Made by a program: the position numbers and the translations under genes. From Pedococcus bigeumensis (GTDB lineage Bacteria > Actinomycetota > Actinomycetes > Actinomycetales > Dermatophilaceae), in assembly GCF_006438965.1 (NCBI RefSeq), contig NZ_RCZM01000007.1, forward strand, positions 62,001 through 126,000: a stretch of 64,000 bases of DNA, read 5' to 3'. The notes under the pieces are model-generated. The model was given only the letters and a program-made list of their open reading frames with translations, was not told where the DNA came from and searched no databases. Within the stretch, counting starts at the first letter, position 1, and every line of letters starts with the position of its first letter. Positions 343 to 63,126 of this stretch are shown piece by piece.

Positions 343-1613
343 TGAAGCGCCTGTCCGCCCTGCGGCTGCCCTCCACCCCCAGGCTCGGACTGATCCCCAA
401 GATCGTCTCGGCACTGGTCGTGGTTGCCCTCGTCGCCGGTGCCTACGCGTTCTGGCCGCGCCACGACAACATCCACGTCACGGGTGACTTCAGCCGCGCG
501 GTGGGCCTGTTCCCCGGCTCCGACGTGCGCATCCTCGGCGTCGCGGTCGGCAAGGTCACCGACGTGACGCCGAAGGGCGACAAGGTCGAGGTGAAGTTCG
601 AGTTCGACCGCAAGTACAAGGTGCCCGCGAACGCCCAGGCGGCCGTGGTGGCCCCCTCGTTGGTGAGCGACCGCTACGTCCAGCTCCTCCCGGCATACAC
701 CGCTGGTCCGGTCATGAAGGACAACGCGCAGATCGGGCTGGACCGCACGGCGGTCCCGGTCGAGCTGGACCGCATCTCCTCCAGCCTGGACGACCTCCTC
801 GTGGCGCTCGGCCCCACCGGCGCCAACAAGAAGGGTGCCTTCGCCGACGTGCTCGACACCGGGGCCAAGAACCTCGGCGGGCAGGGCCAGAAGCTGCACG
901 ACACCAACCGCGACCTGAGCATGGCGCTCGAAACCCTCTCCGGTGGCCGCAACGACCTGTTCGGCACCGTCAAGAACCTCCAGGCCTTCACCACCATGCT
1001 CGCGACGAACGACAGCCAGGTGCGCCGCCTCAACGGCGACCTCGCCAGCGTCTCGGTCCAGCTCGACGGGGAGCGTGACGACCTCGCGGCGGCCCTGAAG
1101 AACCTCGCCGTGGCGTTGAGCGAGGTGAGCTCGTTCGTCCACGACAACCGGGCCGGCCTCACCACCAACCTCAAGCAGCTCGCGTCGGTCACCGGTACCG
1201 TCGCGGAGCAGCGCGACGCCCTCGCAGAGACCCTGACCAACGCCCCCGTGGCGGTCAGCAACCTGCAGAACGCCTACAACCCCGACACCGGCACGCTGGA
1301 CACCCGCGCCAACATCAACGAGAACCTCACGCTCCAGAACCTGCTGTGCAACCTGATCGTCGAAGGCGGTCAGCCGGCCTCGCTGTGCAACACCGTCAAG
1401 GGCGCGCTCAAGCCGATCAAGGACCTGATCGACCAGCTCGGGAAGCTCGGGGTCAAGGTGCCCATCGACATCCTCTCCGCGCTGCCGCAGTCGCAACTGT
1501 CCATGTCGTCCACCTCACCCGCGCCGTCCACCGCCACCGCAGACCAGACGGGGACGGTGCGCATGCGCGGCGCCGACCCGACCCTGGGCGGCCTCCTGGG
1601 AGGCACCCGATGA
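339..1613 (+). CDS. mceD: MCE family protein (MceD position)
   Basis: 424 residues. A single N-terminal membrane segment (about residues 22-43, IVSALVVVALVAGAYAFW) is followed by an MCE domain (about 50-130) with the usual V-x-G-x-F-S-x-A-x-G-L-x-P-G-S-D-V start and the V-G-K-V turn, then a long helical region and a Ser/Thr-rich C-terminus. It should be a subunit of the mixed MCE assembly that moves lipids across the actinobacterial envelope. It starts with ATG overlapping the previous stop (ATGA), so translation is likely coupled. Subunit letter is from gene order. Confidence 0.85.
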   Translation: MMKRLSALRLPSTPRLGLIPKIVSALVVVALVAGAYAFWPRHDNIHVTGDFSRAVGLFPGSDVRILGVAVGKVTDVTPKGDKVEVKFEFDRKYKVPANAQAAVVAPSLVSDRYVQLLPAYTAGPVMKDNAQIGLDRTAVPVELDRISSSLDDLLVALGPTGANKKGAFADVLDTGAKNLGGQGQKLHDTNRDLSMALETLSGGRNDLFGTVKNLQAFTTMLATNDSQVRRLNGDLASVSVQLDGERDDLAAALKNLAVALSEVSSFVHDNRAGLTTNLKQLASVTGTVAEQRDALAETLTNAPVAVSNLQNAYNPDTGTLDTRANINENLTLQNLLCNLIVEGGQPASLCNTVKGALKPIKDLIDQLGKLGVKVPIDILSALPQSQLSMSSTSPAPSTATADQTGTVRMRGADPTLGGLLGGTR

Positions 1614-2860
1614 ACACCGACACACTCCGCCGCCCCCGTATGCCGCGTGCCCACCACGTGATCGCCAGCGTCGCCGTCGGCGCTGTGCTGATGGGGGTGT
1701 CAGGCTGCCAGGGCGCCTTCGACCTCCCACTGCCCGGTGGTGCCGCCAACCGCGGTGACATCTTCCGGGTGACCGCCGAGTTCGCGGACGTGCTTGACCT
1801 GGTCCCGCAGTCGTCGGTCAAGGTCGACCAGGTGACGGTCGGCTCGGTCGAGAAGATCGAGCTCAACGGCTGGACGGCCCGCGTCACGCTGCGGCTGCCC
1901 AAGAACGTCAAGCTGCCCGACAACGCGGTGGCCGAGCTGAAGCAGACCTCCCTGCTGGGGGAGAAGTACGTCGAGCTCGCCGCCCCGACCGGAGCCACGC
2001 CCGAGGGCCGGCTCAGCGACGGCGACAACATCCCCCTCGCCCGCACCGGCCGCAACCCGGAGGTCGAGGAGGTGCTCAGCGCGCTGTCGCTGCTGCTCAA
2101 CGGTGGCGGCGTGGCCCAGCTCAAGATCATCGAGACCGAGCTCAACAACGCAGTGGGCGGCAACCAGGCCCAGATCAAAGACCTCATCAAGCAGCTCGAC
2201 ACCTTCATCGGCGGGCTGGACGCCCAGAAGTCCGAGATCGTCCGCGCCATCGACAACATCGACAAGCTCGCGGGCAAGCTCGCGGCCCAGAAGGACGACA
2301 TCGCCAAGGCGCTCGAGGCGCTCCCGGGGGGGCTCAAGGTCCTGGCCGACCAGCGCCAGCAGCTGGTGCAGATGCTCCAGGCGCTCAGTCGGTTGGGCGC
2401 GGTCGGCACCCAGGTGATCCAGCAGAGCAAGGCCGACACCGCGGCCAACCTCAAGGCGCTCGCCCCCATCCTGGGCCAGCTGACCAAGGCCGGCGACGAC
2501 CTGCCGAAATCGCTGCAGCTGCTGCTCACCTACCCCTTCTCCGACGCCACGACCGGTGCCATGAAGGGCGACTACACCAACATGTCGATCGACATGGACC
2601 TCAACTTCGAGCACCTCGCCGGCAACCTCGGCGTCCCGACCACGCCTCCGGGCGGTGGCGGTCTGCCCACGGGCCGGCCGACCGGTCTGCCGATCCCGAC
2701 CCTGCCGCTGCCTAGTCCCTCGATCCCGCACCTTCCCGTCACCCCTGGCAGCACCACGCCCGGGCCTCTCTGCCCGCCGGTCTGCCTCGCGCCGGCCAAG
2801 CAGTCCGGCTCGTCGGGTTCCGACGACTCCTGGCGCTCCCTCTACGGGGGTGCCGCATGA
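1610..2860 (+). CDS. mceE: MCE family lipoprotein (MceE/LprN position)
   Basis: 416 residues from the ATG at 1610, which overlaps the mceD stop (ATGA); an upstream in-frame extension exists but is read within mceD and is rejected. The N-terminus is a lipoprotein signal: Arg-rich start, hydrophobic stretch and lipobox LMGVSGC with the acylated Cys near residue 33. The MCE domain follows (about 48-125), then a helical coil region and a Pro/Gly/Thr-rich tail (about 345-400). In mycobacterial mce operons the fifth MCE gene is the lipoprotein, which fits. A copy of the GTATGCCGCGTG word sits in codons 10-14. Confidence 0.88.
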   Translation: MNTDTLRRPRMPRAHHVIASVAVGAVLMGVSGCQGAFDLPLPGGAANRGDIFRVTAEFADVLDLVPQSSVKVDQVTVGSVEKIELNGWTARVTLRLPKNVKLPDNAVAELKQTSLLGEKYVELAAPTGATPEGRLSDGDNIPLARTGRNPEVEEVLSALSLLLNGGGVAQLKIIETELNNAVGGNQAQIKDLIKQLDTFIGGLDAQKSEIVRAIDNIDKLAGKLAAQKDDIAKALEALPGGLKVLADQRQQLVQMLQALSRLGAVGTQVIQQSKADTAANLKALAPILGQLTKAGDDLPKSLQLLLTYPFSDATTGAMKGDYTNMSIDMDLNFEHLAGNLGVPTTPPGGGGLPTGRPTGLPIPTLPLPSPSIPHLPVTPGSTTPGPLCPPVCLAPAKQSGSSGSDDSWRSLYGGAA

Positions 2861-4128: not shown

Positions 4129-4727
4129 GCACCATCACCACCGACGCCGGGCGGACGGTGAAGGCAGACGAAGGCGAGTCGCGTCCCGACCCGCACGCTG
4201 CTGACACGGACCCCCAGCCGACCCCTGGCCGCGCCAGGGCCCTGCGCATCACGCCGACCATGGTGTGGGTCGTGGTCGCCATCGCCCTTGTCGCCAGCCT
4301 TGCGCTCGGCGCCACCCGGGGACGCGACTGGTATGCCGCGAGGCAGACCCAGGCGGCCAACGCCGCTGCCGTTGCCGCCGCCAAGCAGCTGGCCATCAAC
4401 TTCGTCACCGTCGACTACACCAAGGTCGACGCGGACATCGCCAGGGTGAAGGCCGGAGCCACGGGAGAGTTCCTCAAGAGCTACTCGACCTCCTCCGCCG
4501 ACCTCACCAAGGTGCTCGTCGCCAACCAGACGGTCTCCACGGTGCAGCGCACCGAGGCCGCCCTCGTGTCCGGCGACCAGGACTCCGCCGTCGCGCTGGT
4601 CGGTGTGGTCGCCCCGACCAAGAACACCGCCGTCCCCAACGGTGAGACCAAGACCTACCGGATGCGGCTGGACCTGCGCATGGTCGGCGACACGTGGAAG
4701 GTGGAGAACCTTGAGTTCGTCGGTTGA
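4125..4727 (+). CDS. Mce-associated membrane protein
   Basis: 200 residues from ATG 4125 (overlaps the mceF stop, preceded by AAGGAGG). A Pro/Asp-rich cytoplasmic N-terminus of about 45 residues, one transmembrane helix (about 46-63, VWVVVAIALVASLALGA), then an extracytoplasmic domain of about 130 residues resembling the Mce-associated (Mas/Mam, SnoaL-like/NTF2-fold) proteins that follow mceF in mycobacteria. Those proteins stabilise or assist MCE complexes; the precise role here is not shown by sequence. Confidence 0.75.
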   Translation: MSTITTDAGRTVKADEGESRPDPHAADTDPQPTPGRARALRITPTMVWVVVAIALVASLALGATRGRDWYAARQTQAANAAAVAAAKQLAINFVTVDYTKVDADIARVKAGATGEFLKSYSTSSADLTKVLVANQTVSTVQRTEAALVSGDQDSAVALVGVVAPTKNTAVPNGETKTYRMRLDLRMVGDTWKVENLEFVG

Positions 4728-5397
4728 TACGAAGGTGAAGTCCCGCCCCAGGGTGGCCGGTGAGCGCTCACGGGCCCGCACCGCCCCCCTGCCCCGCGAC
4801 ACCCAGACCGTGGCACCCGCCACCGAGCCGGTCGACCGCCCGCGCCCGCTGCGAAGCCGGCTCCGGCTCCCCAGCCTGCCCACGCGGCATACCTCGACGT
4901 CGGGGGAGCCGACCGCCGGCGCTCGGCGCCAGTGGGGCGCGGCCCTCGTCGCGCTCGTCGCCGTGCTCGCGGTCCTGGGCGCCGTCGTGGGCGTCAGCCT
5001 GCGCGGCTCCACGGCCCAGGCCGGCACCGACCGGGCGGCGGCCAGCCAGGCCCGCACCTCGATCGAGCAGATGCTCAGCTACAACTACAAGACGATCGAC
5101 GCCCAGGCAGCCCAGATCGAGGGCCTGCTCACCGGGTCGTTCAAGGGCGAGTTCACGGCAGCCATGGACAAGGACATCAAGCCGCTCGCGGTCAAGAACC
5201 AGACCGTCGTGCAGGCTCGGGTGTCCGACATCGGCGTGATGAGCTCCTCCGCGACCACCGTCAAGGTGCTGGCCTTCGTCAACCAGGCCCGGATCGGCAC
5301 CGACCAGAAGGACCCCGTGGTCGACCAGAACCGGGTCATCGCGACGATGTCCAAGGTCGGCGACCGCTGGTTGATCAGCAAGGTCGAGGCCTTCTAG
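4711..5397 (+). CDS. Mce-associated membrane protein, second copy
   Basis: 228 residues if started at TTG 4711, which overlaps the preceding gene by 17 bp and has AAGGTGGAG about 6 bp upstream; GTG 4735 is a weaker alternative. Arg/Pro-rich N-terminus, one transmembrane helix (about 73-94), then a domain with the same plan as the previous gene (A-R-T-S-I-E-Q-M-L-S-Y-N-Y-K-T start, ending in D-R-W-L-I-S-K-V-E), so the two probably arose by duplication. Last gene of the mce operon; a hairpin follows. It contains a CACGCGGCATACC copy at 4881-4893. Confidence 0.72.
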   Translation: MSSSVDTKVKSRPRVAGERSRARTAPLPRDTQTVAPATEPVDRPRPLRSRLRLPSLPTRHTSTSGEPTAGARRQWGAALVALVAVLAVLGAVVGVSLRGSTAQAGTDRAAASQARTSIEQMLSYNYKTIDAQAAQIEGLLTGSFKGEFTAAMDKDIKPLAVKNQTVVQARVSDIGVMSSSATTVKVLAFVNQARIGTDQKDPVVDQNRVIATMSKVGDRWLISKVEAF

Positions 5398-9299: not shown

Positions 9300-9342
9300 G
9301 GTATGCCGCGTGGGCACCGTCACGGTGACCACGCGGCATACC
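9300..9342. repeat. inverted pair of the GGTATGCCGCGTGG element
   Basis: Arms 9300-9313 and 9329-9342 are perfect reverse complements; the loop itself contains CACCGT/ACGGTG, making a nearly complete 43-bp palindrome. It begins 2 bp after the rpoB stop and precedes rpoC, which is normally co-transcribed. There is no U-tract. Confidence 0.9.
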
Positions 9343-13292: not shown

Positions 13293-13339
13293 CGAGGGCG
13301 GGTATGCCGCGTGGTCACCACGCGGCATACCCGCCCTCG
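13293..13339. repeat. inverted pair of the GGTATGCCGCGTGG element
   Basis: A perfect 47-bp palindrome (23-bp arms around C13316) with CGAGGGCGGGTATGCCGCGT on the left arm. A third, degenerate copy CGGCATATCCCGG follows at 13340. Sits 18 bp after the rpoC stop; here it could end the rpoBC transcript, because an independent rpsL promoter follows. Confidence 0.9.
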
Positions 13340-14550: not shown

Positions 14551-14591
14551 CCGGTATGCCGCGTGCGCCAGGCGCGCACGCGGCATACCGG
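14551..14591. repeat. inverted pair of the GGTATGCCGCGTGC element
   Basis: Perfect 18-bp arms (14551-14568 and 14574-14591) around a 5-nt loop, lying 6 bp after the rpsG stop and before fusA. No U-tract. As in the rpoB-rpoC gap, it interrupts an operon rather than ending one. Confidence 0.9.
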
Positions 14592-18215: not shown

Positions 18216-18247
18216 TTCGCTGTGCCCGGTATGCCGGGTGGCTTGTC

Positions 18248-18485: not shown

Positions 18486-18510
18486 GAGAGGTATGCCGGG
18501 TGGCCGGCTT

Positions 18511-21266: not shown

Positions 21267-21322
21267 CGGCATACCCGAGGGTGACGGCCGCTGCGCGACG
21301 CGCCACCGGTGCGGGTATGCCG
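21267..21322. repeat. outward-facing pair of GTATGCCG elements
   Basis: CGGCATACCCG (21267-21277) and CGGGTATGCCG (21312-21322) are perfect 11-bp inverted arms with a 34-nt loop. The arms are in the opposite order to most other pairs (GCATAC first). Located upstream of the rpsJ promoter region. Confidence 0.75.
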
Positions 21323-27350: not shown

Positions 27351-27395
27351 GCCCACGCGGCATACCGGAGAAACCACCGGGTATGCCGCGCGGGC
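27351..27395. repeat. outward-facing pair of the GGTATGCCGCG element
   Basis: GCCCACGCGGCATACC (27351-27366) pairs with GGTATGCCGCGCGGGC (27380-27395) at 15 of 16 positions. Lies between rpsQ and rplN, the junction of the S10 and spc operons. The remaining gap to 27469 shows GACAGGAG before rplN but no clear promoter. Confidence 0.85.
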
Positions 27396-31764: not shown

Positions 31765-31810
31765 GGGTATGCCGCGGGCTCACCGCTCAAGGTGAGCTCG
31801 CGGCATACCC
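31765..31810. repeat. inverted pair of the GGGTATGCCGCGGGC element, possible terminator
   Basis: 20-bp arms (31765-31784 and 31791-31810) with a single G-U mismatch and a 6-nt loop, followed by CCATTTG. It lies 16 bp after rplO and before the secY promoter, so a terminator role is plausible here. Confidence 0.85.
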
Positions 31811-37165: not shown

Positions 37166-37201
37166 GAGGTATGCCGCGTGGGTGACCACGCGGCATACCT
37201 C
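37166..37201. repeat. inverted pair of the GAGGTATGCCGCGTGG element
   Basis: Perfect 16-bp arms (37166-37181 and 37186-37201) around GTGA. Six bases after the rpsD stop and about 100 bp before rpoA. No U-tract. Confidence 0.9.
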
Positions 37202-42024: not shown

Positions 42025-42672
42025 ATGAACGACACCGTCAAGCCTCGGCGCTACACCTCGCCCGTCCGCGCCGAGCGAGCTGCCCGCACCCGTCGGCAGG
42101 TCCTGGCCGCGGCGCGAGACCTGTTGTCGGACAACGGATATGACGCCACCACCGTGGCGCAGATCGCTGCGCGGGCGAGGGTGTCCGTCGACACCGTCTA
42201 CAGCAGCGTGGGGCGCAAGCCCGAGCTCGTGGTGGCCGTCATCGACATGGTGCTGGGCTCCTCGAACGAGCCGATCCCGGCGGCGGAGCGCGACTACGTC
42301 CGCGCGATCCGTGCGGCAACCACCGGCCGCCAGAAGCTGGAGTTGTATGCCGAGTCCCTCCGGACCCTGGTTCCCCGCACCGCCCCACTCCTCGAGGCGT
42401 TGCGGCGGGCGGGGGAGGCCGACCCCGAGGCGGCCAGGGCCTGGTCGATGGTGATGGACCGTCGAGCCGCGAACATGATGCTGATGGCTGCCGACCTGAG
42501 GGCCACGGGCGACCTGCGAGCCGACCTCACCGACCGCGAGGTCGCCGACATCATCTGGTCGACGAACTCACCCGACTACTGGCTGCTGCTGCACTCGCGG
42601 GGATGGACCGCGAAGCGCTACGCGGAGCTGCTGGACGACCTGTGGTACCGCCTGCTCCTCGAACGCGAGTAG
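42025..42672 (+). CDS. TetR/AcrR family transcriptional regulator
   Basis: 215 residues from ATG 42025. N-terminal helix-turn-helix (about 19-65): R-R-Q-V-L-A-A-A-R-D-L-L-S-D-N-G-Y-D-A-T-T-V and A-R-V-S-V-D-T-V-Y. The C-terminal ligand domain is not diagnostic. Likely represses the cupin gene and itself. The upstream open frame is a shadow of the cupin gene. Confidence 0.85.
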   Translation: MNDTVKPRRYTSPVRAERAARTRRQVLAAARDLLSDNGYDATTVAQIAARARVSVDTVYSSVGRKPELVVAVIDMVLGSSNEPIPAAERDYVRAIRAATTGRQKLELYAESLRTLVPRTAPLLEALRRAGEADPEAARAWSMVMDRRAANMMLMAADLRATGDLRADLTDREVADIIWSTNSPDYWLLLHSRGWTAKRYAELLDDLWYRLLLERE

Positions 42673-42729: not shown

Positions 42730-43629
42730 TCAGCTGATGGCGGCGTAGCCGAGCGAGTCGTGGATGGCGAGGCCGGCGAAGGCGGGCGAGGCGGCGAAGG
42801 CGTCCCGCACCTGGGCGAGCTGGCTGTCCATCTGGGCCAGCGTCATGCCGTGGAACGTCTGCTTGACCTCGGTCGGGTCGGTGCCGAGGAAGTTCGTCTC
42901 CTGGCCTATCCGGACCGGGCGACCGAGCTGTCCGCCTGCCGCGACCTCCGCCGACGCCAGGGCGATCGTGCCGTCGGGGCCATCCGCGTGGTTGCGGTAG
43001 GCCATGACTGCCACGGCCTCGGTGCGCCGCATGATCTCACGGTCCAGCGTCGAGCCGTTGGCGGCGATCTCGTCGAACCAGAACGGGATGTCGGCCTCGA
43101 TCGGCGCGCCTGCCGCAGCGGTGTGCAGCCTGTCGAGGGTGGCGAGGTACTTCGTGATGACGGCCTTGCGATTCTTGGTCCAGGCGGCCGTCGTGTAGGG
43201 CTCGATGTCGACATGGACCCCGGTGAACAGCCCCGTGGCCAGTGCCGGCTGCAGCCAGTTGGTGACCACCCAGGCCGGGTTGTCGACCCAGCCGGGATCG
43301 CCGCCGAGGGCATCCACGCGGATCCCCGCGGCATCGGCCAGGGCGACTAGCTGCTGGAGCTCGGCGAGCTTCGGCGAGCTGTCCACGTGCGGGGGGACGG
43401 CGGCATACAGCTGGCCGATCTCGCGGGACGTGGCGAGAGTGACGACCGACTGCGGGTCGGAGGTGTCCCAGACCCACATGGCTCGCTCGGCGGCCGGTCG
43501 AGCCGCGCGGTCCACCGCCTCGGCGGACGCGGCCATCGCCTGGCCTGCCACCGTCACGCCCACGGCACCGAGGATCGCCACGAGGGCGACCATAGCCACG
43601 AGGCGGGCGGGTGAGGTGGAGCGGGGCAC
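42730..43629 (-). CDS. secreted protein of unknown function, TIM-barrel-like
   Basis: 299 residues from GTG 43629 with AAAGGA upstream. Signal peptide about residues 1-35 (L-V-A-M-V-A-L-V-A-I-L-G-A-V-G-V-T-V, cleavage near A-M-A-A-S-A). The mature part reads like an alpha/beta barrel: R-A-M-W-V-W-D-T, G-V-H-V-D-I-E-P-Y (possible acid pair), A-D-I-P-F-W-F-D-E and V-A-V-M-A-Y-R-N-H. Such motifs occur in glycoside-hydrolase-like folds, but I cannot assign a family or substrate. Confidence 0.7.
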   Translation of the reverse strand: MPRSTSPARLVAMVALVAILGAVGVTVAGQAMAASAEAVDRAARPAAERAMWVWDTSDPQSVVTLATSREIGQLYAAVPPHVDSSPKLAELQQLVALADAAGIRVDALGGDPGWVDNPAWVVTNWLQPALATGLFTGVHVDIEPYTTAAWTKNRKAVITKYLATLDRLHTAAAGAPIEADIPFWFDEIAANGSTLDREIMRRTEAVAVMAYRNHADGPDGTIALASAEVAAGGQLGRPVRIGQETNFLGTDPTEVKQTFHGMTLAQMDSQLAQVRDAFAASPAFAGLAIHDSLGYAAIS

Positions 43630-43790: not shown

Positions 43791-45527
43791 GTGGGACACC
43801 TCGACATCAACACCGTGAACTTCAGCCTGCCCGACGGCAGGCAGCTGCTGAGCGACGTCTCGCTGCGCGTGGGGGAGGGCGCGAAGGTCGCGCTCATCGG
43901 TCCCAACGGCACCGGCAAGACGACGCTCGGCCGGATCATCGCCGGCGACCTGGCCGCCCACGAGGGGGCCGTCACCCGCTCCGGCGGGCTCGGCGTGATG
44001 CGCCAGTTCGTCGGGCAGGTGCGCGACGAGTCGACGGTGCGCGACCTGCTTCTGTCGGTGGCGCCCGACCCGCTGCGCAACGCCGCGGCCGAGATCGACC
44101 GCACCGAGATGCTGATGATGGAGCGCGACAGCGAGGCCGACCAGATGGCCTACGCGCACGCACTGGTCACGTGGGGCGACGTGGGCGGCTACGACTACGA
44201 GACCCTCTGGGATGTCTGCACCGTGGCGGCCCTCGGTATGCCGTTCGACAACGCCCAGTGGCGCAAGGTCACCACCCTCTCGGGCGGCGAGCAGAAGCGG
44301 GTGGTCCTCGAGGCGCTGCTGCGTGGTCCCGAGGAGGTGCTGCTGCTCGACGAGCCGGACAACTACCTCGACGTGCCGGCCAAGCGGTGGCTGGAGGACC
44401 AGCTCATCGCCTCGCCCAAGACGGTGCTCTTCGTCAGCCACGACCGGGAGCTGCTCAACCGGGTGGCCACCAGGGTCGCCACCCTCGAGCCCGGGGGCGC
44501 CGGATCGACCCTGTGGGTGCACCCCGGCAGGTTCTCGACCTACCAGCAGGCCCGCGAGGACCGGAACTCGCGCCTCGAGGAGCTGCGCCGTCGCTGGGAC
44601 GAGGAGCACCAGAAGATCATCGACCTGGTCCAGATGCTCAAGGTCAAGGCCAAGTACAACGACGGCATGGCGCCTCGGTACCACGCCGCCCAGACCCGGC
44701 TGCGCAAGTTCGAGGAGGTCGGCCCCCCGCAGGAGACTCCGTTGCGCCAGAAGGTCAACATGCGGCTCAAGGGCGGTCGCACGGCCAAGCGCGCCGTCAT
44801 CGCCGAACGCCTGGAGCTGAGCGCAGGAGCTCCCGCCGCGGGTGCCGATCGGCCCGCAGGCCCCTCGGCCAATGGGGCCCTGATGAAGCCGTTCGACCTC
44901 GAGATCTGGTTCGGCGAACGCGTCGCTGTGCTGGGCAGCAACGGCTCCGGCAAGTCGCACTTCCTCCGCCTCGTCGCATGTGGTGGCAGCGACCCCGATG
45001 CCGAGCACCGTCCGGTCGGGGACCTCCAGCCGACGCCGGTGACCCACACGGGTCGGCTCCGGCTGGGCTCACGGGTCCGTCCCGGGTGGTTCGCCCAGAC
45101 CCATGAGCAGCCCGCCCTGCTCGGCCGCACCCTGCTGGAGATCCTGCACCGCGGCGACGAGCACCGGACCGGACGGCCCCGCGAAGAGGCGGCCCGCGTG
45201 CTGGACCGCTACGGCCTGGCCCGCGCGAGCGAGCAGACCTTCGAGTCGCTCTCGGGTGGCCAGCAGGCGCGGTTCCAGATCCTGCTGCTCGAGCTGTCCG
45301 GAGCGACCTGCCTGCTGCTGGACGAGCCGACCGACAACCTCGACCTGCACTCCGCCGAAGCCCTGGAGCAGGGGCTCGAGGCCTTCGAGGGAACCGTCAT
45401 CGCGGTCACCCACGACCGGTGGTTCGCCCGGGGCTTCGACCGCTTCCTGGTGTTCGGTGCCGACGGTCGCGTGTACGAGTCGGACGAACCGGTGTGGGAC
45501 GAAGGCCGGGTCGCCCGCGCTCGCTGA
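43791..45527 (+). CDS. ABC-F family ATPase
   Basis: 578 residues from GTG 43791. Two ATPase domains and no membrane segments. Domain 1: P-loop G-P-N-G-T-G-K-T-T (about 38-46), signature L-S-G-G-E-Q-K-R, Walker B L-L-L-D-E-P-D-N-Y-L-D. A charged coiled linker (about 250-330) matches the P-site tRNA-interacting region of ABC-F proteins. Domain 2: G-S-N-G-S-G-K-S, L-S-G-G-Q-Q-A-R and L-L-L-D-E-P-T-D-N-L-D. Such proteins act on the ribosome as translation factors or antibiotic-protection factors; which applies is not decided by sequence. Confidence 0.88.
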   Translation: MGHLDINTVNFSLPDGRQLLSDVSLRVGEGAKVALIGPNGTGKTTLGRIIAGDLAAHEGAVTRSGGLGVMRQFVGQVRDESTVRDLLLSVAPDPLRNAAAEIDRTEMLMMERDSEADQMAYAHALVTWGDVGGYDYETLWDVCTVAALGMPFDNAQWRKVTTLSGGEQKRVVLEALLRGPEEVLLLDEPDNYLDVPAKRWLEDQLIASPKTVLFVSHDRELLNRVATRVATLEPGGAGSTLWVHPGRFSTYQQAREDRNSRLEELRRRWDEEHQKIIDLVQMLKVKAKYNDGMAPRYHAAQTRLRKFEEVGPPQETPLRQKVNMRLKGGRTAKRAVIAERLELSAGAPAAGADRPAGPSANGALMKPFDLEIWFGERVAVLGSNGSGKSHFLRLVACGGSDPDAEHRPVGDLQPTPVTHTGRLRLGSRVRPGWFAQTHEQPALLGRTLLEILHRGDEHRTGRPREEAARVLDRYGLARASEQTFESLSGGQQARFQILLLELSGATCLLLDEPTDNLDLHSAEALEQGLEAFEGTVIAVTHDRWFARGFDRFLVFGADGRVYESDEPVWDEGRVARAR

Positions 45528-45536
45528 GGTCTGGGT

Positions 45537-45580: not shown

Positions 45581-45679
45581 ACCGCGCATCGACGGTAGAT
45601 CTCGACGCGCGCTCAAGGGCGAGCGGGAATACATTGCCAAGGTTCCCCCTCCTTGCTGGCTGACCAGGACGGTGCTGTC

Positions 45680-48600
45680 ATGGCGCGACCCAAGTCCCTT
45701 GTTGCTGCCCTCAGTGGCGTAGCCATCATCGCCGCCGGAGTGGGGTTGCCCCTCGCGGCTGCACCCGCCGGAGCGGCGGACCCGCCGCCACGGACCGCCT
45801 CCCTCGCGGGCTCGCTCCAGGACGAGCTCGGGTGCCCGGAGGACTGGAAGCCCGAGTGCGCGGCCACGGACCTGACCCAGGTCGGCAACACCACGGCATA
45901 CGCCAGGACCTTCTCGCTGCCCGCGGGCAGCTACGAGTTCAAGATCGTCATCAACCACTCGTGGGACGAGAACTACGGCGCCGCCGGCGCCTCCAACGGT
46001 GCCAACATCCCGCTCGTCCTCAAGGGCCCGGCCACGGTCGAGTTCTCCTACGACGACGTGACGCACCAGGTCGGGATCCGGCCCACCGTGCTGTCCGGAC
46101 CCGCGACCAAGGCGGACCGGGCGTATGCCGGTGACTCACTGCGGGCGGGCCTGACCAAGGAGCGCTACTACTTCGTCATGACCGACCGGTTCGCCAACGG
46201 CGACCCGTCGAACGACGCGGGCGGTCTCACGGGCAACCGCCTGCAGACCGGCCTGGACCGCACGGACAACGGTTTCTACCACGGTGGCGACCTCAAGGGG
46301 ATCTCCCAGAAGCTGGACTACATCAAGAACCTCGGGACCACCTCCATCTGGCTGACCCCCTCGTTCAAGAACAAGCCCGTACAGGGGACCGCGCCCAACG
46401 AGAGCTCGGGCTACCACGGCTACTGGATCACCGACTTCACCCAGGTCGACCCGCATCTGGGCACCAACGCGGACCTCACGGCGCTGATCAGCGCCGCCCA
46501 CGCCAAGGGCATGAAGGTCTTCTTCGACATCATCACGAACCACACGGCCGACGTCATCAACTACTCCGAGGGGCAGTACACCTACCGAGACAAGGGGACG
46601 TTCCCCTACAAGGACGCCGGCGGCACCGTCTTCGACGACAAGGCGTTTGCCGAGAAGCCCAACTTCCCCGCGATGGACCCAGCCACGTCGTTCCCCTACC
46701 ACCCGGTGTTCACCAACCCGGGTGACTCCACGGCCAAGGTGCCGGCCTGGCTGAACGACCCGACCAACTACCACAACCGCGGTGACTCGACCTTCGCCGG
46801 GGAGTCCGCTGAGTACGGCGACTTCGTCGGCCTCGACGACCTGTTCACCGAGCAGCAGGACGTCGAGAAGGGCATGGAGGACATCTACAAGGCGTGGGTG
46901 GACTTCGGCGTCGACGGGTTCCGCATCGACACGGTCAAGCACGTCAACATGGAGTTCTGGCAGTCGTTCAACCCGGCGATGCTCGCGCAGGCCCGCCACG
47001 ACGGCAACGACGACTTCTTCATGTTCGGCGAGGTCTACGACGCTCGCCCCTCCTTCATGTCGCAGTACACGACGACGGGCAAGCTGCCCGCGACCCTGGA
47101 CTTCGGGTTCCAGGCGCAGTCGGTCAACTGGGTGCAGGGCAAGTCCGGCACGGACCTGCGTGACCTCTACGCCGACGACGACTACTACACCGACAGCGAC
47201 TCCAACGCCTACGAGCTGCCGACCTTCCTCGGCAACCACGACATGGGCCGAGTGGCGATGATGCTCAAGGGCGCCAGTGCTGACGACGCCGATCTGATGC
47301 GGCGGGTCAAGCTTGCCGACTCGCTGATGTTCCTCACCCGTGGCCAGCCGATCACCTACTACGGCGACGAGCAGGGCTTCATGGGATCGGGCGGGGACAA
47401 GGCCGCCCGGCAGGACATGTTCGCCACCCAGGTGCCGAGCTATGCCACCGAGCAGGTGCTGGGTGACACCCCTGGCGCCAAGGACCGGTTCAACACCGCT
47501 GCGCCGCTCTACCAGCACATCAAGGCGCTGTCCGCGTTGCGGGCCGCAAACCCGGCGCTCGCCGACGGCGCGCAGATCCACCGCTACGCGAGCAGCAGCG
47601 CGGGCATCTTCGCGTTCTCCCGCATCGACAAGGGCAAGAACGTCGAGTACGTCGTCGCCCTCAACAACGCGGACGCTGCGAAGCCGGCCACGTTCGCGAC
47701 CTACGGCCACAACCAGACGTTCGCGCCGGTTTACGGCGCGACGACGTCAGCCCGGTCCGGCAAGGACGGCCGGCTCACCGTGAGCGTCCCCGCCCAGTCG
47801 GTGTCGGTGTGGAAGGCCACGTCACCGATGGACAAGCCGAGGTCCGCCCCGGCGGTCTACCTCACGTCGCCCGGAGCCGGCGACGTCGTCGGCGGTCGCG
47901 CCGAGATCGGTGCGGCCATCCCCGACAACACCTTCGCCCAGGTGTCGTTCCTTGCCCGTCCGGTCGGCACGACGGCCTGGACCAAGCTCGGCACGGACGA
48001 CAACGCGCCCTACCGGGTCTTCCACGACGTCAGCGATGCGACCGTGTGGCCCAAGGGCACCCTCGTGGAGTACCGCGCCGTGGCCAAGGACATCGCGGGT
48101 CACGTGTCGGCCTCCTCGTCCTACGGGATTGTGGGGGACCCGAAGGCCAGCGGCGGCGGCGGTGGTGGCGTGGGTCCGGTGACCCAGCCTGACGCCGTCA
48201 GCGTGCCCGGTGACCACAACTCGGAGATGGGCTGTGCGGCCGACTGGTCGCCCGACTGCCCGCAGGCCCAGCTGACCCTCGACCCCAAGGACCAGATCTG
48301 GAAGGGCAGCTACACCCTGCCGACCGCGCCGTACGCCTACAAGGCCGCGATCAACAAGAAGTGGGACGAGAACTACGGAGCGGGCGCTGTCCCGAACGGT
48401 GACAACATCAGCTACACGGCCCCCGCGGCGAAGCCCGTGAACTTCTACTACGACCACGGGACCCACTGGGTCACCTCCGACGCGCAGGGCCCGATCATCA
48501 CCGCCCCGGGCTCCTTCCAGTCCGAGCTGGGGTGCCCGGCCGACTGGGCACCGGACTGCATGCGGCCCTGGCTGCAGGATCCCGACGGTGACGGCACCTA

Positions 48601-51475
48601 CACCTGGTCCAGCGACCAGCTCCCTGCCGGAACGTACGACTTCAAGGTCGCGCACGGCCTCAACTGGGACGTGAACTACGGAGCCGGCGGGGCTCCCGGC
48701 GGCGCCAACATCACCGTGACGGTCCCGTCCGACGGCATGGTGGTCTCGATCTCGTACGTCCTGTCGACGCACGTGGCCACCGCCAAGGCCGTCAGGGCGG
48801 GTGCCGCACCAGACCTCACCAAGCAGCGCGCCGTGTGGGTGGGCAAGGACCTCATCGCGTGGCCGGCGGCCATGGTCCCCGACGGCGCCACCCCTGCGCT
48901 GCTCAAGTGGCGGCTCGCCTGGTCGGCCACCGGTGGCCTGACCGTCGACGCCGAGGACATCACCGGCGGCTCGTCCGCGCCGCTGCGCTATGACCCTGAA
49001 GGGCTGTCGCCTGCTGTGCTGGCCGCCCACCCCGAGCTCGCGGGCTACCTCGCCCTACGGCTCGACCGGAAGACGGCCGGCAAGGTGCCGGACATCCTCA
49101 AGGGCCAGATCGCGGTCGGCATGTACGACTCGCTGAGCCGGCTGCTCGACGCCACCGGCGTGCAGATCCCCTACGTCCTCGACGACCTGTATGCCGCGGA
49201 CGCAGGCAAGCGTGCCTACGGCGTCACCTTCGGTGGACGGTCACCGTCGTACCGGGTCTGGGCGCCGACCGCACAGCAGGTGGACCTGCTCACCTGGGCC
49301 CCTGGGGCCGCCGGTGATGCGCCGGCCAGCGCCGCCACGCGCACGCACCTCACCCGGGCGTCGGACGGTTCGTGGTCCGGCTCGGCCGGCGTTCGGAACG
49401 CGCGTTACCTGTACGAGGTGACCGTCTACGTGCCCAGCACGGGCAAGGTCGAGACCACCCAGGTGACCGACCCGTACTCCGTTGCCCTGACGCTGGACTC
49501 GACCAGGTCGGTGGCCGTGGACCTCAAGGACACGGCATACCAGCCGTCGCTCTGGCGGACCGCGAAATCGCCGGTGCTGAAGCAGGACGTCGACTCGACG
49601 ATCTACGAGCTCCAGGTCCGCGACTTCTCCGTGAACGACCCGACGGTGAGCGCCGAGAACCGCGGTTCGTACCTCGCGTTCGCGGAGAACGGCAACGGCA
49701 CCAAGCACCTCAAGGCGCTCGCGTCGGCGGGGCTCAACACGGTGCACCTGCTGCCGACCTTCGACATCGCCTCGATCCCAGAGGACCCGGCGAAGCAGGC
49801 GACGCCTGGGTGCGACCTGAAGTCGTTCGCGCCGGACAGCGACCAGCAGCAGGCCTGCATCGAGCCGATCCGGGCCAAGGACGCCTTCAACTGGGGCTAC
49901 GACCCGTGGCACTGGATGGCGCCCGAGGGCTCCTACGCATCGACGGCAGCCAAGGCCGACGGCGGAGCGCGGGTCGCCGAGTTCCGGACCATGGTCGGTG
50001 CGATCCACCAGGACGGCCTGCGCGTCGTGCTCGACCAGGTGTTCAACCACACGCCGACGTCTGGCCAGGCACCTACGAGCGTGCTCGACAAGGTCGTGCC
50101 CGGCTACTACCAGCGGCTCAACGCCTCGGGTGCGGTCGAGACCTCGACCTGCTGCCAGAACGTCGCCACCGAGCACGCCATGGCCCAGAAGGCGATGGTC
50201 GACGCGGTGGTGCTGTGGGCCCGCGACTACAAGGTGGACGGGTTCAGGTTCGACCTGATGGGCCACCACTCGAAGGCCAACATGCTGGCCGTGCGGGCTG
50301 CCCTCGACCAGCTCACCCTGAAGAAGGACGGGGTCGACGGCAAGTCGGTCTACCTCTACGGGGAGGGCTGGAACTTCGGCGAGGTGGCCAACAACGCGCG
50401 GTTCGAGCAGGCCACCCAGGGCCAGCTCGGTGGGACCCACATCGGCACGTTCTCGGACCGGCTGCGTGACGCAGTCCGAGGTGGCGGACCGTTCGACGAC
50501 GACCCCCGCAAGCAGGGCTTCGGCAGCGGCGAGTCCACCGACGCGAACGGGGTGCCGTTCGCCGGCTATGACCCGGCCACGTCGCTGAAGCACGACACCG
50601 ACCTGGTCGAGCTCGGGCTGGCCGGCAACCTGAGGTCGTTCTCGTTGCGGCTCAACCAGAATGGCACGGTCGTGACGGGCAAGGACGTGGACTACAACGG
50701 TTCGCCGGCCGGCTATGCCGACCAGCCCGACGAGGTGATCTCATACGTCGACGCCCACGACAACGAGACGCTGTTCGACAGCCTGACCTACAAGCTGCCG
50801 GTCGCCACCTCGATGTCGGACCGCGTTCGGATGAACACGATGTCGCTGGCCACGACGGCGCTGTCGCAGACCCCGTCGTTCTGGCACGCCGGGGCCGACC
50901 TGCTCCGCTCGAAGTCGTTGGACCGCAACAGCTATGACAGCTCGGACTGGTTCAACACCCTCGACTGGACCGGTGCCGACAACGGCTTCGGGCACGGCCT
51001 CCCGCTCAAGGCGGACAACGAGGCGAAGTGGCCCATCCAGAAGCCGCTGCTCGCCAACGCTGCCCTCAGGCCCGCCGCGGCCGACGTGCAGGCGGCCACC
51101 GTCCAGGCGCAGGACCTGTTGCGGCTGCGGTTCTCGACGAAGCTGTTCCGTCTGGGCTCGGCCTCGGCCATCAACGCCAAGGTCTCGTTCCCCGCGAGCG
51201 GGACGGCCGACGCCCATGCCGGAGTGATCGCCATGCGGATCGACGACACCGTGGGTGTCGACGCCGACCCGCAGCTCAAGGGCTTGGTCGTCGTGTTCAA
51301 CGCGTCGCCGACCGCCGTGACCCAGAAGGTCCCCGGACTGGCCGGTGCCGCGCTCGCGCTCGCACCGGTGCAGCAGGGCGGGTCGGACGCCGTGGTCAAG
51401 ACCGCGACGTGGAACGCCGCAGCCGGGACCGCGACCGTCCCGCCGCGCACCGTGGCGGTGTTCTTCCAGCACTGA
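45680..51475 (+). CDS. pulA: secreted alpha-amylase/pullulanase (GH13), bifunctional
   Basis: 1931 residues from ATG 45680; TTG 45653 is a possible but worse start. Signal peptide (about 1-34). X25-type starch-related module (about 40-135, W-D-E-N-Y-G). GH13 alpha-amylase domain (about 157-713): nucleophile Asp417 in G-F-R-I-D-T, acid Glu451 in F-G-E-V-Y, Asp521 in L-G-N-H-D-M. Fn3-like linker and Gly run, then two more X25 modules (about 839-934 and 938-1037). C-terminal pullulanase half: CBM48-like segment (about 1185), Y-D-P-W-H-W, D-Q-V-F-N-H, Asp1525 in F-R-F-D-L-M, Glu1562 in Y-G-E-G-W, Asp1694 in A-H-D-N-E. Likely degrades starch, glycogen or pullulan outside the cell. Confidence 0.93.
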   Translation: MARPKSLVAALSGVAIIAAGVGLPLAAAPAGAADPPPRTASLAGSLQDELGCPEDWKPECAATDLTQVGNTTAYARTFSLPAGSYEFKIVINHSWDENYGAAGASNGANIPLVLKGPATVEFSYDDVTHQVGIRPTVLSGPATKADRAYAGDSLRAGLTKERYYFVMTDRFANGDPSNDAGGLTGNRLQTGLDRTDNGFYHGGDLKGISQKLDYIKNLGTTSIWLTPSFKNKPVQGTAPNESSGYHGYWITDFTQVDPHLGTNADLTALISAAHAKGMKVFFDIITNHTADVINYSEGQYTYRDKGTFPYKDAGGTVFDDKAFAEKPNFPAMDPATSFPYHPVFTNPGDSTAKVPAWLNDPTNYHNRGDSTFAGESAEYGDFVGLDDLFTEQQDVEKGMEDIYKAWVDFGVDGFRIDTVKHVNMEFWQSFNPAMLAQARHDGNDDFFMFGEVYDARPSFMSQYTTTGKLPATLDFGFQAQSVNWVQGKSGTDLRDLYADDDYYTDSDSNAYELPTFLGNHDMGRVAMMLKGASADDADLMRRVKLADSLMFLTRGQPITYYGDEQGFMGSGGDKAARQDMFATQVPSYATEQVLGDTPGAKDRFNTAAPLYQHIKALSALRAANPALADGAQIHRYASSSAGIFAFSRIDKGKNVEYVVALNNADAAKPATFATYGHNQTFAPVYGATTSARSGKDGRLTVSVPAQSVSVWKATSPMDKPRSAPAVYLTSPGAGDVVGGRAEIGAAIPDNTFAQVSFLARPVGTTAWTKLGTDDNAPYRVFHDVSDATVWPKGTLVEYRAVAKDIAGHVSASSSYGIVGDPKASGGGGGGVGPVTQPDAVSVPGDHNSEMGCAADWSPDCPQAQLTLDPKDQIWKGSYTLPTAPYAYKAAINKKWDENYGAGAVPNGDNISYTAPAAKPVNFYYDHGTHWVTSDAQGPIITAPGSFQSELGCPADWAPDCMRPWLQDPDGDGTYTWSSDQLPAGTYDFKVAHGLNWDVNYGAGGAPGGANITVTVPSDGMVVSISYVLSTHVATAKAVRAGAAPDLTKQRAVWVGKDLIAWPAAMVPDGATPALLKWRLAWSATGGLTVDAEDITGGSSAPLRYDPEGLSPAVLAAHPELAGYLALRLDRKTAGKVPDILKGQIAVGMYDSLSRLLDATGVQIPYVLDDLYAADAGKRAYGVTFGGRSPSYRVWAPTAQQVDLLTWAPGAAGDAPASAATRTHLTRASDGSWSGSAGVRNARYLYEVTVYVPSTGKVETTQVTDPYSVALTLDSTRSVAVDLKDTAYQPSLWRTAKSPVLKQDVDSTIYELQVRDFSVNDPTVSAENRGSYLAFAENGNGTKHLKALASAGLNTVHLLPTFDIASIPEDPAKQATPGCDLKSFAPDSDQQQACIEPIRAKDAFNWGYDPWHWMAPEGSYASTAAKADGGARVAEFRTMVGAIHQDGLRVVLDQVFNHTPTSGQAPTSVLDKVVPGYYQRLNASGAVETSTCCQNVATEHAMAQKAMVDAVVLWARDYKVDGFRFDLMGHHSKANMLAVRAALDQLTLKKDGVDGKSVYLYGEGWNFGEVANNARFEQATQGQLGGTHIGTFSDRLRDAVRGGGPFDDDPRKQGFGSGESTDANGVPFAGYDPATSLKHDTDLVELGLAGNLRSFSLRLNQNGTVVTGKDVDYNGSPAGYADQPDEVISYVDAHDNETLFDSLTYKLPVATSMSDRVRMNTMSLATTALSQTPSFWHAGADLLRSKSLDRNSYDSSDWFNTLDWTGADNGFGHGLPLKADNEAKWPIQKPLLANAALRPAAADVQAATVQAQDLLRLRFSTKLFRLGSASAINAKVSFPASGTADAHAGVIAMRIDDTVGVDADPQLKGLVVVFNASPTAVTQKVPGLAGAALALAPVQQGGSDAVVKTATWNAAAGTATVPPRTVAVFFQH

Positions 51476-52164: not shown

Positions 52165-53415
52165 ATGGATACCAGAACGACACCTTCCTCGGGCTTCCGA
52201 CTCCTGGCCGCGGGCCAGGGACTCTCGTGGTTCGGCGACGCGTTCGCTCCGATCGCGCTCGCCGTCGCCGTGGTGGCAGGGGGTGGCAGCGCCAGCGAGC
52301 TCGGACTCGTCCTCGCCGCGACCATGACGGCTCGCCTGGCGGGCACCCTGCTCGGTGGGGTGTGGGCCGACCGACTCGCGCCGGGCCGGATCATGGTGGT
52401 CAGCGATCTCGTGCGGGCAGCGAGCGCCTTGGCCACCGCCGGATACTTCGCTACCGGGCAGGACAGCCTCGCCCTGCTGTGCGGGCTGGCGGCCGTGACC
52501 GGCGGCGCGGCTGCATTCTTCGGACCGGCCTTCGTCTCGCTGCGGCCACTGCTCGTCGCGGTCGACCGGCGTCACGCGGCGAACGCCACCCTCAACATCC
52601 TGCAGAACTCGGCCTTCATCCTCGGCCCGGCGGCCGCCGGCGTCTTCGTCGCCTGGGCAGGTGCGCCCTGGGCCTTCGTCGTCAACGCCGTCTCCTTCCT
52701 CGTGTCGGCAGCCATCGTCGCCGCGATCCGTGTCGAGGCACCGCGCGCTCCCCGGGTCGGCATGCTCGCGGAGCTGCGCGAGGGCTGGCACGAGGTGACC
52801 AACCGCTCGTGGCTGCTCGCCGGGCTGCTGGCCGCCACGGCATACCACGCTGCCTTTGGTGCCGTCGTCGTCCTGATCGACGTGATCGTCGTGCGCGACC
52901 TCGGCGGTCCGACCGCACTCGGCTGGATCTCGGCGGCCTCTGGCGCTGGGGGGCTGGTCGGCGGACTGCTCGCGCTGCGGCTGCCGCCGAGCCGCCCGCT
53001 GTTCGTCGGCTGGCCGTGCGTGGCCCTGATGTCACTGTTCGCAGCGGCGTTCGCGTGGCCGGGGGACCTCGTGGTGATCGTCGGTGCGGCCGTGGTGGCC
53101 TTCGGTGGGCTGATGTACTTCTCGGTCTGCTGGGACACGGCGCTGCAGGACGGCGTCCCGCACGCGGTGCTCGCGCGGGTGTCGTCCTGGGACATCCTCA
53201 CGTCGTTCGTGGCGATCCCCGCGGGGAACGCCCTCGCCGGACCCCTCGCTCACACCTTCGGCACCGCACGGGTGATCGTCGTGGCGGCGGTGGTGATGGC
53301 GCTCGCCTCCTTCGCCCCGATGCTGGTCCGCGGCTCACGCGAGCTGCGCCGGTCCACCAGCGTCCCGGCGGCCGAACCTGCTGCGGCCGAACCTGCTGTG
53401 GCCGCGCACGGGTGA
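52165..53415 (+). CDS. MFS transporter (DHA3-like)
   Basis: 416 residues from ATG 52165. About twelve membrane segments; start G-Q-G-L-S-W-F-G-D-A-F-A-P-I-A-L-A and loop G-G-V-W-A-D-R-L-A-P-G-R resemble drug- and siderophore-type exporters. C-terminal Ala/Glu-rich tail. Paired with a divergent MarR regulator; substrate unknown. Confidence 0.85.
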   Translation: MDTRTTPSSGFRLLAAGQGLSWFGDAFAPIALAVAVVAGGGSASELGLVLAATMTARLAGTLLGGVWADRLAPGRIMVVSDLVRAASALATAGYFATGQDSLALLCGLAAVTGGAAAFFGPAFVSLRPLLVAVDRRHAANATLNILQNSAFILGPAAAGVFVAWAGAPWAFVVNAVSFLVSAAIVAAIRVEAPRAPRVGMLAELREGWHEVTNRSWLLAGLLAATAYHAAFGAVVVLIDVIVVRDLGGPTALGWISAASGAGGLVGGLLALRLPPSRPLFVGWPCVALMSLFAAAFAWPGDLVVIVGAAVVAFGGLMYFSVCWDTALQDGVPHAVLARVSSWDILTSFVAIPAGNALAGPLAHTFGTARVIVVAAVVMALASFAPMLVRGSRELRRSTSVPAAEPAAAEPAVAAHG

Positions 53416-55420: not shown

Positions 55421-55423
55421 GCG

Positions 55424-55568: not shown

Positions 55569-55637
55569 TGCCGTGCGCCCTCGGAAGGCGCTCACCCATC
55601 GGTCCGCAAGGGCCGCGCGCCTCGGGCGCACACGGCA
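55569..55637 (+). other. rplM leader stem
   Basis: TGCCGTGCGCCC (55569-55580) is complementary to GGGCGCACACGGCA (55624-55637) apart from a 2-nt insertion, enclosing 43 nt with smaller GC stems. It could be a ribosomal-protein leader or an ordinary stem. The 3' arm includes a CGGCATAC word. Confidence 0.45.
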
Positions 55638-55683
55638 TACGAGTCCATCATCATCACTTCACCAGCAGTAAAGGGCCATTACC

Positions 55684-56700: not shown

Positions 56701-56804
56701 GGCGTCTGCAGGAGTAGGTTCGGCCCAGTTGCGTCCGTGCGCCCGGACCAGATCGACGAGGTATGCCGGGTGCGCACCCTGATCGTCGGAAAGGCTTCCC
56801 CTTC

Positions 56805-59961: not shown

Positions 59962-59963
59962 GG

Positions 59964-60497: not shown

Positions 60498-62173
<1,676 letters not shown>

Positions 62174-62199
62174 CGGGTCGTCGTGCTCCTGTCGTAGGT

Positions 62200-63126
62200 C
62201 TACAGCTCGTCGAGGCTGGGGGCATAGGCGCCGGCCTTGCCGACCGTGATCCCGCTGGTCGCCACACCGCGGTCCACGGCGGGGCGCACCTGATCCAGTG
62301 TCGCCCCCGCGAGGCGCGTGCGCGCATCCGGGTCGCCCAGCAGACCCGAGGCCAGCAGGCCGGAGATGAGGCCGGCCATGAAGGAGTCGCCGGCGCCGAC
62401 GGTGTCGACGACCCGCTCGGCTGCGGTGGGTGCGCTGCCCTCCTCCCCGGTCGCGGTCACGCGGAAGACGACGCCGTGCTCGCCGCGGGTGACCACGGAG
62501 AGCGAGGCGCCCAGCGAGCCCCAGTAGGCCATGACCTGGGAGGGCGACTGGCCGGCATACAGGAGCTCGAGGTCGTCCTCGCTGGCCTTGACCACGTCGG
62601 AGAGGGCGATGATGCCCTCGACGTGGTCGCGCACGACGTCGAGGTCGCCCATGATCCCCGGGCGGATGTTGGGGTCGTAGGAGACGGTGCCTCGGTCGCG
62701 CACCGCCCGCAGTGCCTCGAGCGTGCGTGCGGCGCCCGGCTCGAGGACCGCTCCGATCGAACCGGTGTGCACGTGGCCGGTCCCGTCGGGCAGGTCGATG
62801 TGGGGGAGGTTCCAGTAGAGGTCGAACTCGTAGGTCGCGGCACCCGTGGCGTCGAGACGGGCCCGTGCCGTGGAGGTGGGGTCCTGGCCGTGGCTGGTGC
62901 TGAGCACCGTGACGCCGTGCCGCGTGAGGTGGGCGGTGATGCGGTCCCCGCGGGGGTCCTGCCCCAGCGACGTGGCGAAGTCCACCGGCTGGTCGAGCCG
63001 GGCCAGCCCGATCGCGACGTTGGCCGGGCTGCCGCCGACGTGCTCGACGGACTCGCCGTCGGGGTCGGTCACGATGTCGACGAGGGCCTCGCCGATGACG
63101 AGGATGCGGGGACGGGGGCGAGTCAT
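62200..63126 (-). CDS. PfkB family sugar kinase (fructokinase-like)
   Basis: 308 residues from ATG 63126, overlapping the glpX stop (ATGA). PfkB signatures: [14 protein letters not shown] near residue 31 and [12 protein letters not shown] at about 244 with the catalytic Asp. Sugar specificity is not determined; fructose is most likely by similarity of family style. Co-translated with glpX. Confidence 0.85.

Follow-up and report, generated by a model that had tools for sequence, protein, structure and literature searches.

The window analysed here, that is, the whole stretch of 64,000 nucleotides from Pedococcus bigeumensis (contig NZ_RCZM01000007.1, positions 62,001 to 126,000), is crowded with a short word, GTATGCCG, a non-palindromic 8-mer that differs from its complement CGGCATAC and that, judging from its sequence and distribution, is most probably the core of a DNA uptake sequence read by a surface receptor. 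The two strands of the window carry 36 copies (20 as GTATGCCG and 16 as CGGCATAC), against 0.9, 1.0 and 1.6 expected from Markov models of order 1, 2 and 3, respectively, and among all 8-mers with at least eight copies this one has the top excess score. An initial annotation of the same DNA had reported a window-wide over-representation, with about 18 copies in genes and about 18 between them. Both statements were reproduced by word counts and gene calls (18 and 18), and most of its coordinates were exact, three of them being off by one (4886, 44235 and 45895 are in fact 4885, 44236 and 45894).

Genome-wide counts close to the Markov expectation, or restriction of the word to the window, would have refuted that annotation by its own terms, and neither was observed. 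In the whole P. bigeumensis genome (4.22 Mb in 13 contigs) the word occurs 2551 times (1264 + 1287), while the reversed word, used as a control, occurs 74 times (35 + 39); the 13-mer GTATGCCGCGTGG is found 166 times (78 + 88) and its control not at all. The anatomy of the word was studied in a 464-kb sample of this genome, made up of the window and 20 stretches of 20 kb, which holds 265 copies against 12.3 expected at order 3 and to which the counts below refer unless another scope is given. The 8-mer is strict, since 21 of its 24 one-base variants stay at or below 1.5 times the order-2 expectation. Strand bias, which had been proposed for checking, was not seen: orientation by the sign of the GC skew of each stretch, a proxy used with the replication origin not located, gave 74/78 and 58/55. 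The copies are also spaced more evenly than at random, with a coefficient of variation of 0.751 against 0.936 ± 0.058, a value as low being reached in 0 of 2000 simulations.

The search was extended to 117 genomes, of which 71 belong to the Dermatophilaceae/Intrasporangiaceae-like family (52 genera, P. bigeumensis included) and 46 to the rest of the order. More than half of the family genomes (41 of 71) exceed 100 copies of GTATGCCG per Mb, and all 10 congeners searched show it in excess, with 625–3986 copies; this density was reached in none of the 46 genomes of the order outside the family and, in a class scan of 256 genomes, in none of 250 outside-family genomes, the highest having ~52 per Mb. 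Among the matches listed for the RpoB of the window, the closest named relatives are Humibacillus xanthopallidus (86%) and Janibacter limosus (84%), which point to the family named above and which carry 2908 copies (control 406) and 32 copies (control 25), respectively, and six other named actinobacteria hold 25–106 copies.

Eight further family genomes, one of them (G034) doubtful, carry a one-base variant, GGATGCCG, GTACGCCG or GTATGCGG, instead of GTATGCCG. Such dialects were screened for with the 24 one-base variants in samples of 9.5–40 kb from 30 genomes, six of other families and 24 of this one, namely 23 of its 30 word-poor members and the word-bearing G025. A single variant stood out (score ≥7) in seven screened genomes: GGATGCCG in G036, G026 and G011, GTACGCCG in G033, G049 and G057, and GTATGCGG in G030; in the other word-poor samples of the screen every variant scored below 4. 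Over whole genomes, counted as word/reversed control, GGATGCCG reaches 3949/289 in G036, 3816/392 in G026 and 1336/310 in G011, and it is present in another family, f19, as well (G106, 4491/159; G090, 1548/184). One family genome, G053, carries two spellings, with 2195/207 for GGATGCCG and 1217/97 for GTATGCCG. For GTACGCCG the counts are 3903/310 in G049, 2618/161 in G057, 2216/143 in G033 and 1359/167 in G034, and 1125/171 in G063, which was scored as word-negative. GTATGCGG stands at 1204/107 in G030 and, small counts aside, exceeds 3.5 times its control in none of the others among the 117 genomes.

Some further observations were made on words of this kind. In G046 (L127, L128), a word-negative family member, another word, CCCCCTTCG/CGAAGGGGG, is found 25 times against 1.9 expected in 40 kb, and the same word is found 8 times against 0.6 in 23.7 kb of J. 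limosus (L061), which is word-negative for GTATGCCG. In 15.6 kb of Agromyces sp. ISL-38 (L045), GGATGCCG has 14 copies where 2.6 are expected, a hint that this dialect extends into the Microbacteriaceae; it is in mild excess in several other named loci too (e.g., Tersicoccus, 9 against 2.6). GTACGCCG occurs 13 times against 2.2 in Nocardioides daeguensis (L050). A tandem array at G088:C1:28082-30104 repeats GTATGCGG every ~61 bp and is unrelated to the dialect.

As called by our own simple gene caller, 187 of the 265 sampled copies (~71%) are coding, 76 are intergenic and 2 lie at gene edges. The coding copies are read as Tyr-Ala (98), Ala-Tyr (52), Gly-Ile (18), Met-Pro (12), Arg-His (6) and Val-Cys (1), and they are paid for in codons: where GTA(T/C)GCCG is read as Tyr-Ala, TAT outnumbers TAC by 98 to 16, though TAT makes up 10% of the Tyr codons, and GTATGCCG accounts for 18 of the sample's 42 ATA codons. 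These figures agree with the earlier claim that rare codons are spent on the word. The count of 13 coding sites read as Tyr-Ala or Ala-Tyr was reproduced as well, the 18 of the window including 7 of the former and 6 of the latter. Orthologous sites were compared by aligning nine of the ten congeners, G002 being omitted because its contig ends there. Across the ten genomes of the genus TAT is retained at 0.76 inside the word and 0.39 outside it (5 and 33 sites, p 0.008), and ATA offers one site. The coding copies of the window, placed by word count and gene call except where noted, are the following.

691..698, minus strand, coding word read as Ala-Tyr
1638..1645, plus strand, coding word read as Met-Pro
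4331..4338, plus strand, coding word read as Tyr-Ala, unchanged in 7 of 9 aligned congeners
4885..4892, minus strand, coding word read as Arg-His
24527..24534, plus strand, coding word read as Met-Pro
34302..34309, plus strand, coding word read as Tyr-Ala
34670..34677, minus strand, coding word read as Ala-Tyr
39222..39229, plus strand, coding word read as Arg-His, on the strand opposite to the gene
42345..42352, plus strand, coding word read as Tyr-Ala
43401..43408, minus strand, coding word read as Tyr-Ala
44236..44243, plus strand, coding word read as Met-Pro
45894..45901, minus strand, coding word read as Ala-Tyr
46123..46130, plus strand, coding word read as Tyr-Ala
49189..49196, plus strand, coding word read as Tyr-Ala
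49533..49540, minus strand, coding word read as Ala-Tyr
52838..52845, minus strand, coding word read as Ala-Tyr
61631..61638, plus strand, coding word read as Ala-Tyr
62553..62560, minus strand, coding word read as Tyr-Ala

With regard to the machinery, comEA and comEC, which the initial annotation had suggested looking for, are both present in P. bigeumensis by Pfam: ComEA, examined in this genome only, has HHH_3 and SLBB domains, ComEC has Competence and Lactamase_B domains, and a protein tentatively named ComFC shows a phosphoribosyltransferase match alone. PilT (TIGR01420) is above its family cut-off in 1 of the 71 family genomes (G035), G015 and G055 have strong matches that fall short of it, and P. 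bigeumensis has no such match; a ComP-type machine is therefore not expected, and the candidate of a ComP-like type IVa apparatus was dropped, ComP itself not having been searched for. P. bigeumensis has instead three loci with Tad-type ATPases. The Tad-1 locus (L138:177-4793) holds tadA-B-C, a Flp-sized pilin, two TadE proteins and one TadG-like protein (TadE, twice, and Tad are Pfam matches, the other gene names being assigned by hand). By eye, its layout and pilin N-termini resemble tad-1 of Micrococcus luteus as described in passages of two reports (PMC4322843, PMC6370729), and the second locus (L139) resembles tad-2. In M. luteus, according to the passages of the former that deal with the deletions, two tad loci are needed for transformation, which is abolished by deleting nearly any gene of either (PMC4322843).

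The word and the Tad-1 locus occur together, in an association that is not one-to-one. Among the family genomes, 48 of the 49 that are word-positive and 13 of the 22 that are word-negative have a Tad-1-type TadA when split or partial copies are scored as present (Fisher 5e-5); counted by genus, the figures are 36 of 37 against 8 of 15 (3e-4). The difference holds with the doubtful G034 taken as negative (47/48 against 14/23, 9e-5), and it holds when split or partial copies are left out (1.4e-4). Conversely, 9 of the 10 family genomes in which no Tad-1 ATPase was matched are free of the word. On a tree of 40 Tad-1 TadA proteins the dialect labels require 13 changes, against a mean of 20.6 after shuffling (0 of 200 as low), while the GTACGCCG group taken alone shows no standout clustering (49 of 500 shuffles as low).

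The gene tadA of this locus is itself a target of insertion. It is split in two in G004, G009 and G017, which bear the word, and in G038 and G111, which do not (L224-L230, L232, L233). The split falls at residues ~206-234, at or just behind the motif GGTQAGKTT, which we take to be the ATP-binding loop; the halves lie 11–79 kb apart in the four cases with both on one contig, and the insertions seem to use two attachment sites close to each other. A large serine recombinase adjoins the junction in all five genomes, four of these proteins having Resolvase and Recombinase Pfam domains and that of G009 being recognised from its N-terminus. For G027 and G031 the match covered only part of tadA. Mobile elements in comYC, comK, comFA and comM have been taken as counter-attacks on transformation, in the passages of PMC4774983 concerned with them, and because known competence genes are struck in the same way, the tadA insertions support, without proving, a role of Tad-1 in DNA uptake. 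In a separate observation, foreign-looking genes, so judged by eye, follow tadC in G036 (L192), G057 (L199), G030 (L202) and G106 (L195), and pilin genes were not found in the fetched stretch behind tadC of these four, apart from weak matches in G057 and G030.

Mobile DNA is poor in the word. The element in tadA of G017 has 1 copy of GTATGCCG against 12.5 expected, the fetched ends of those in G004 and G009 have 3 against 11.2 and 0 against 3.7, and a 37.9-kb island of P. bigeumensis (C7:402101-440000; L141, L031) has 2 against 22.9, a contrast flattered by the fact that the start of the island was set after the copies in L141 were known. Taken together, these four pieces contain 6 copies where 50.3 are expected. 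The island has a lower G+C content (0.639) and encodes a protein of 1856 aa along with other large unidentified proteins.

The word could alternatively serve chromosome maintenance, being read by an intracellular protein of replication, repair, segregation, compaction or methylation in the manner of HIP1, Chi or KOPS, and its even spacing, its presence throughout the genome and its cost in codons would fit such a role, as would its scarcity in young islands, which is expected of any slowly accumulating word. We nevertheless regard this as unlikely. Chi and KOPS are orientation-biased words, whereas GTATGCCG shows no bias with GC skew, and a replication-polar word was rejected on the orientation counts given above. 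HIP1 of cyanobacteria is likewise a strict, very frequent 8-mer of coding and non-coding DNA, but it is palindromic, whereas GTATGCCG is not and has dialects. Intracellular roles cover some of the features and do not readily cover single-base dialects between related genera, or the link to Tad-1, including the genomes in which the word and the Tad-1 ATPase are both missing.

A second alternative starts from the intergenic copies, which extend to the consensus GGTATGCCGCGTGG, a weak G/C-rich extension, and of which 40 of 76 form 20 inverted pairs no more than 60 nt apart. The pair starts within 39 nt 3' of a stop codon in 15 of these 20, and folding energies lie between -19.5 and -53.0 kcal/mol. 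In the window, 14 of the 18 intergenic copies make up seven such pairs, which agrees with the extended and paired intergenic copies of the initial annotation. The pairs and the lone intergenic copies are the following.

9301..9341, no strand assigned, inverted pair (9301 plus, 9334 minus), 2 nt 3' of the rpoB stop codon (rpoB named from a relative annotated as RNA polymerase beta); -44.3 kcal/mol
13302..13330, no strand assigned, inverted pair (13302 plus, 13323 minus), 3' of the long gene after rpoB (rpoC, by its position), with perfect 23-bp arms; -53.0 kcal/mol
14554..14588, no strand assigned, inverted pair (14554 plus, 14581 minus), from word count, inverted-repeat scan and gene calls
21267..21322, no strand assigned, inverted pair in outward order (21267 minus, 21315 plus), from word count and gene calls
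27358..27388, no strand assigned, inverted pair in outward order (27358 minus, 27381 plus), from word count, inverted-repeat scan and gene calls
31767..31808, no strand assigned, inverted pair (31767 plus, 31801 minus), from word count, inverted-repeat scan and gene calls
37169..37198, no strand assigned, inverted pair (37169 plus, 37191 minus), from word count, inverted-repeat scan and gene calls
18229..18236, plus strand, lone intergenic word, from word count and gene calls
18491..18498, plus strand, lone intergenic word, from word count and gene calls
55633..55640, minus strand, lone intergenic word, from word count and gene calls
56761..56768, plus strand, lone intergenic word, from word count and gene calls

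A perfect 22-bp inverted repeat with a 6-nt loop and without the word also lies between two genes at 45534-45583 of the window.

If the word were primarily an arm of terminator hairpins, its lone copies would be decayed or half hairpins. The number, position and stability of the intergenic pairs favour this, and so does the joint change of both arms in some congeners: the pair at 14554/14581 has both arms as GTGTGCCG in G006 and G010, and that at 37169/37191 has both as GTATGGCG in G006 and G007. As a primary role it is very improbable, because most sampled copies are coding and these form only two inverted pairs, and because terminators do not depend on particular letters, whereas this 8-mer is strict, even at the expense of rare codons. 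Termination may be an additional function of the copies that occur in pairs, a role that PMC1939737 reports, and doubts, as an old proposal for the Neisseria and Haemophilus words.

A dispersed mobile repeat of the REP or MITE type, the other option raised by the initial annotation, would explain the extended intergenic consensus and the 166 copies of the 13-mer; it was rejected and has next to no standing, because the coding copies have only the 8 bases and their codon context in common and diverge beyond them, flanks being weak in genes, and because the flank profile of all 265 copies shows no longer unit. A codon-pair or mutational bias of high-GC genomes, which the dialect word GTACGCCG might recall with its ordinary Tyr-Ala spelling and its high background in many actinobacteria, is hardly credible either, as GTATGCCG uses rare codons, G follows GTATGCC in 36 of 36 cases in the window, none of 250 class relatives from other families has a density above 100 copies per Mb, and copies are 3.7 times as dense between genes as within them (90% of the sample is coding, yet 76 of 265 copies are intergenic). 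Chance or composition was rejected by the Markov expectations, the invariant final G, the variant counts and the class scan.

An uptake sequence, the likeness already put forward by the initial annotation, is the best-supported account, since it covers at once the strict 8-mer, its strand neutrality and even spacing, its dialects, its scarcity in mobile DNA and its association with Tad-1; the over-representation, codon cost, inverted pairs and presence of comEA and comEC agree with it. From these data we infer the following course of events. DNA bearing the 8-mer would be preferred by a surface receptor, for which a minor pilin of a Tad/Flp competence pilus is the likeliest choice; the candidates are the minor pilins of Tad-1 and Tad-2 and, besides these, ComEA. 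The pilus would pull the DNA in, ComEA and ComEC would carry it across the membrane and homologous recombination would install it. Because word-bearing fragments would enter more often, molecular drive would let GTATGCCG accumulate on both strands at any site that the encoded protein can accommodate, about one copy per 1.7 kb, and the paired copies behind genes would additionally be kept as terminator hairpins. Changes of the receptor in separate lineages would have given rise to the one-base dialects GGATGCCG, GTACGCCG and GTATGCGG.

Several results weigh against the uptake-sequence reading. Three one-base variants are in excess themselves, CTATGCCG with 18 copies against 5.0, TTATGCCG with 4 against 0.6 and GGATGCCG with 82 against 45.3. 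Conservation of the rare codons at the word held for TAT, where it comes from 5 sites, and not for GCA, the retention of which is 0.50 inside and 0.42 outside the word at the orthologous sites of the congeners (p 0.12, not significant). At several intergenic pairs it is the hairpin and not the word that has been kept, since congeners have changed both arms together. comEC is useless as a discriminator because it occurs in 111 of the 117 genomes, and within the family it was matched in 46 of 49 word-positive genomes, the match being absent from the word-positive G039, G042 and G043 (58, 81 and 95% complete). The Tad-1 locus is not sufficient, given its TadA in word-negative genomes, nor strictly necessary, as G056 has 1624 copies of the word and no Tad-1 TadA match, and the Fisher values (5e-5 and 3e-4) are too small because genomes and genera are not independent and relatedness was ignored. 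Finally, GTACGCCG is how Tyr-Ala is ordinarily spelt, and its background is high, with 770/74 in 2.5 Mb of G108, a member of another family; because of this background, and because a 20-kb sample of G034 did not show the excess, the dialect of G034 is doubtful. As a side observation, in the word-rich G005 the comEC match is in two pieces (G005:C1:1517076-1517881), possibly from a frameshift or an assembly error.

The uptake signal sequence (USS) of the Pasteurellaceae has a long AT-rich flank, whereas GTATGCCG has a weak G/C-rich extension; the two words are unrelated and USS uses a Gram-negative type IV pilus machinery. The likeness lies in their distribution, as the passages of PMC1939737 on this subject describe USS as mostly coding (65% in Haemophilus influenzae, against 71% here), evenly spaced and without orientation bias. 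The DNA uptake sequence (DUS) of the Neisseriaceae, for which PMC3630211 gives eight dialects and, for four genomes, 2245–3603 copies, is likewise a short non-palindromic word present in thousands of copies in and between genes, with dialects of a few bases in related genera; it is read by ComP of a type IVa pilus, whereas here the word, the phylum and the envelope are different and Tad/Flp loci are present instead. M. luteus is closer by phylum, being one of the Actinomycetota with two tad loci, comEA and comEC and, in the relevant passages of PMC4322843, no other type IV pilus genes; P. bigeumensis differs in having a third Tad locus, the likeness of the loci being judged by eye. The term "uptake sequence" is absent from the main text of the M. 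luteus papers searched, for mycobacteria a passage of PMC10526031 states that no uptake sequence has been reported, and a 2025 paper names, in its passage on the matter, the Neisseriaceae and the Pasteurellaceae as the only families known for word-based discrimination of self from foreign DNA at binding (PMC12616744). No earlier report of an uptake sequence in Actinomycetota was found in the literature searched, which was open-licence, with few subscription journals or preprints. The GTATGCCG system probably works like DUS and USS, from both of which it differs in word and phylum and probably in pilus.

We consider it likely that an uptake-sequence system evolved independently in the Actinomycetota and is recognised by a Tad/Flp pilus rather than a type IVa pilus, that its dialects, no fewer than four, serve as mating barriers throughout one family and in part of a second, and that mobile elements retaliate by inserting into the ATPase gene of the pilus. 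If this is true, monoderm bacteria would provide a third case, unrelated to the two known ones and relying on another kind of pilus, and self-tagging of DNA would have to be regarded as something that evolves repeatedly. The dialects would offer a fresh natural set for finding the receptor by co-variation, many members of the family would be predicted to be naturally transformable, now or formerly, and the addition of GTATGCCG to donor DNA could make members of this family genetically tractable.

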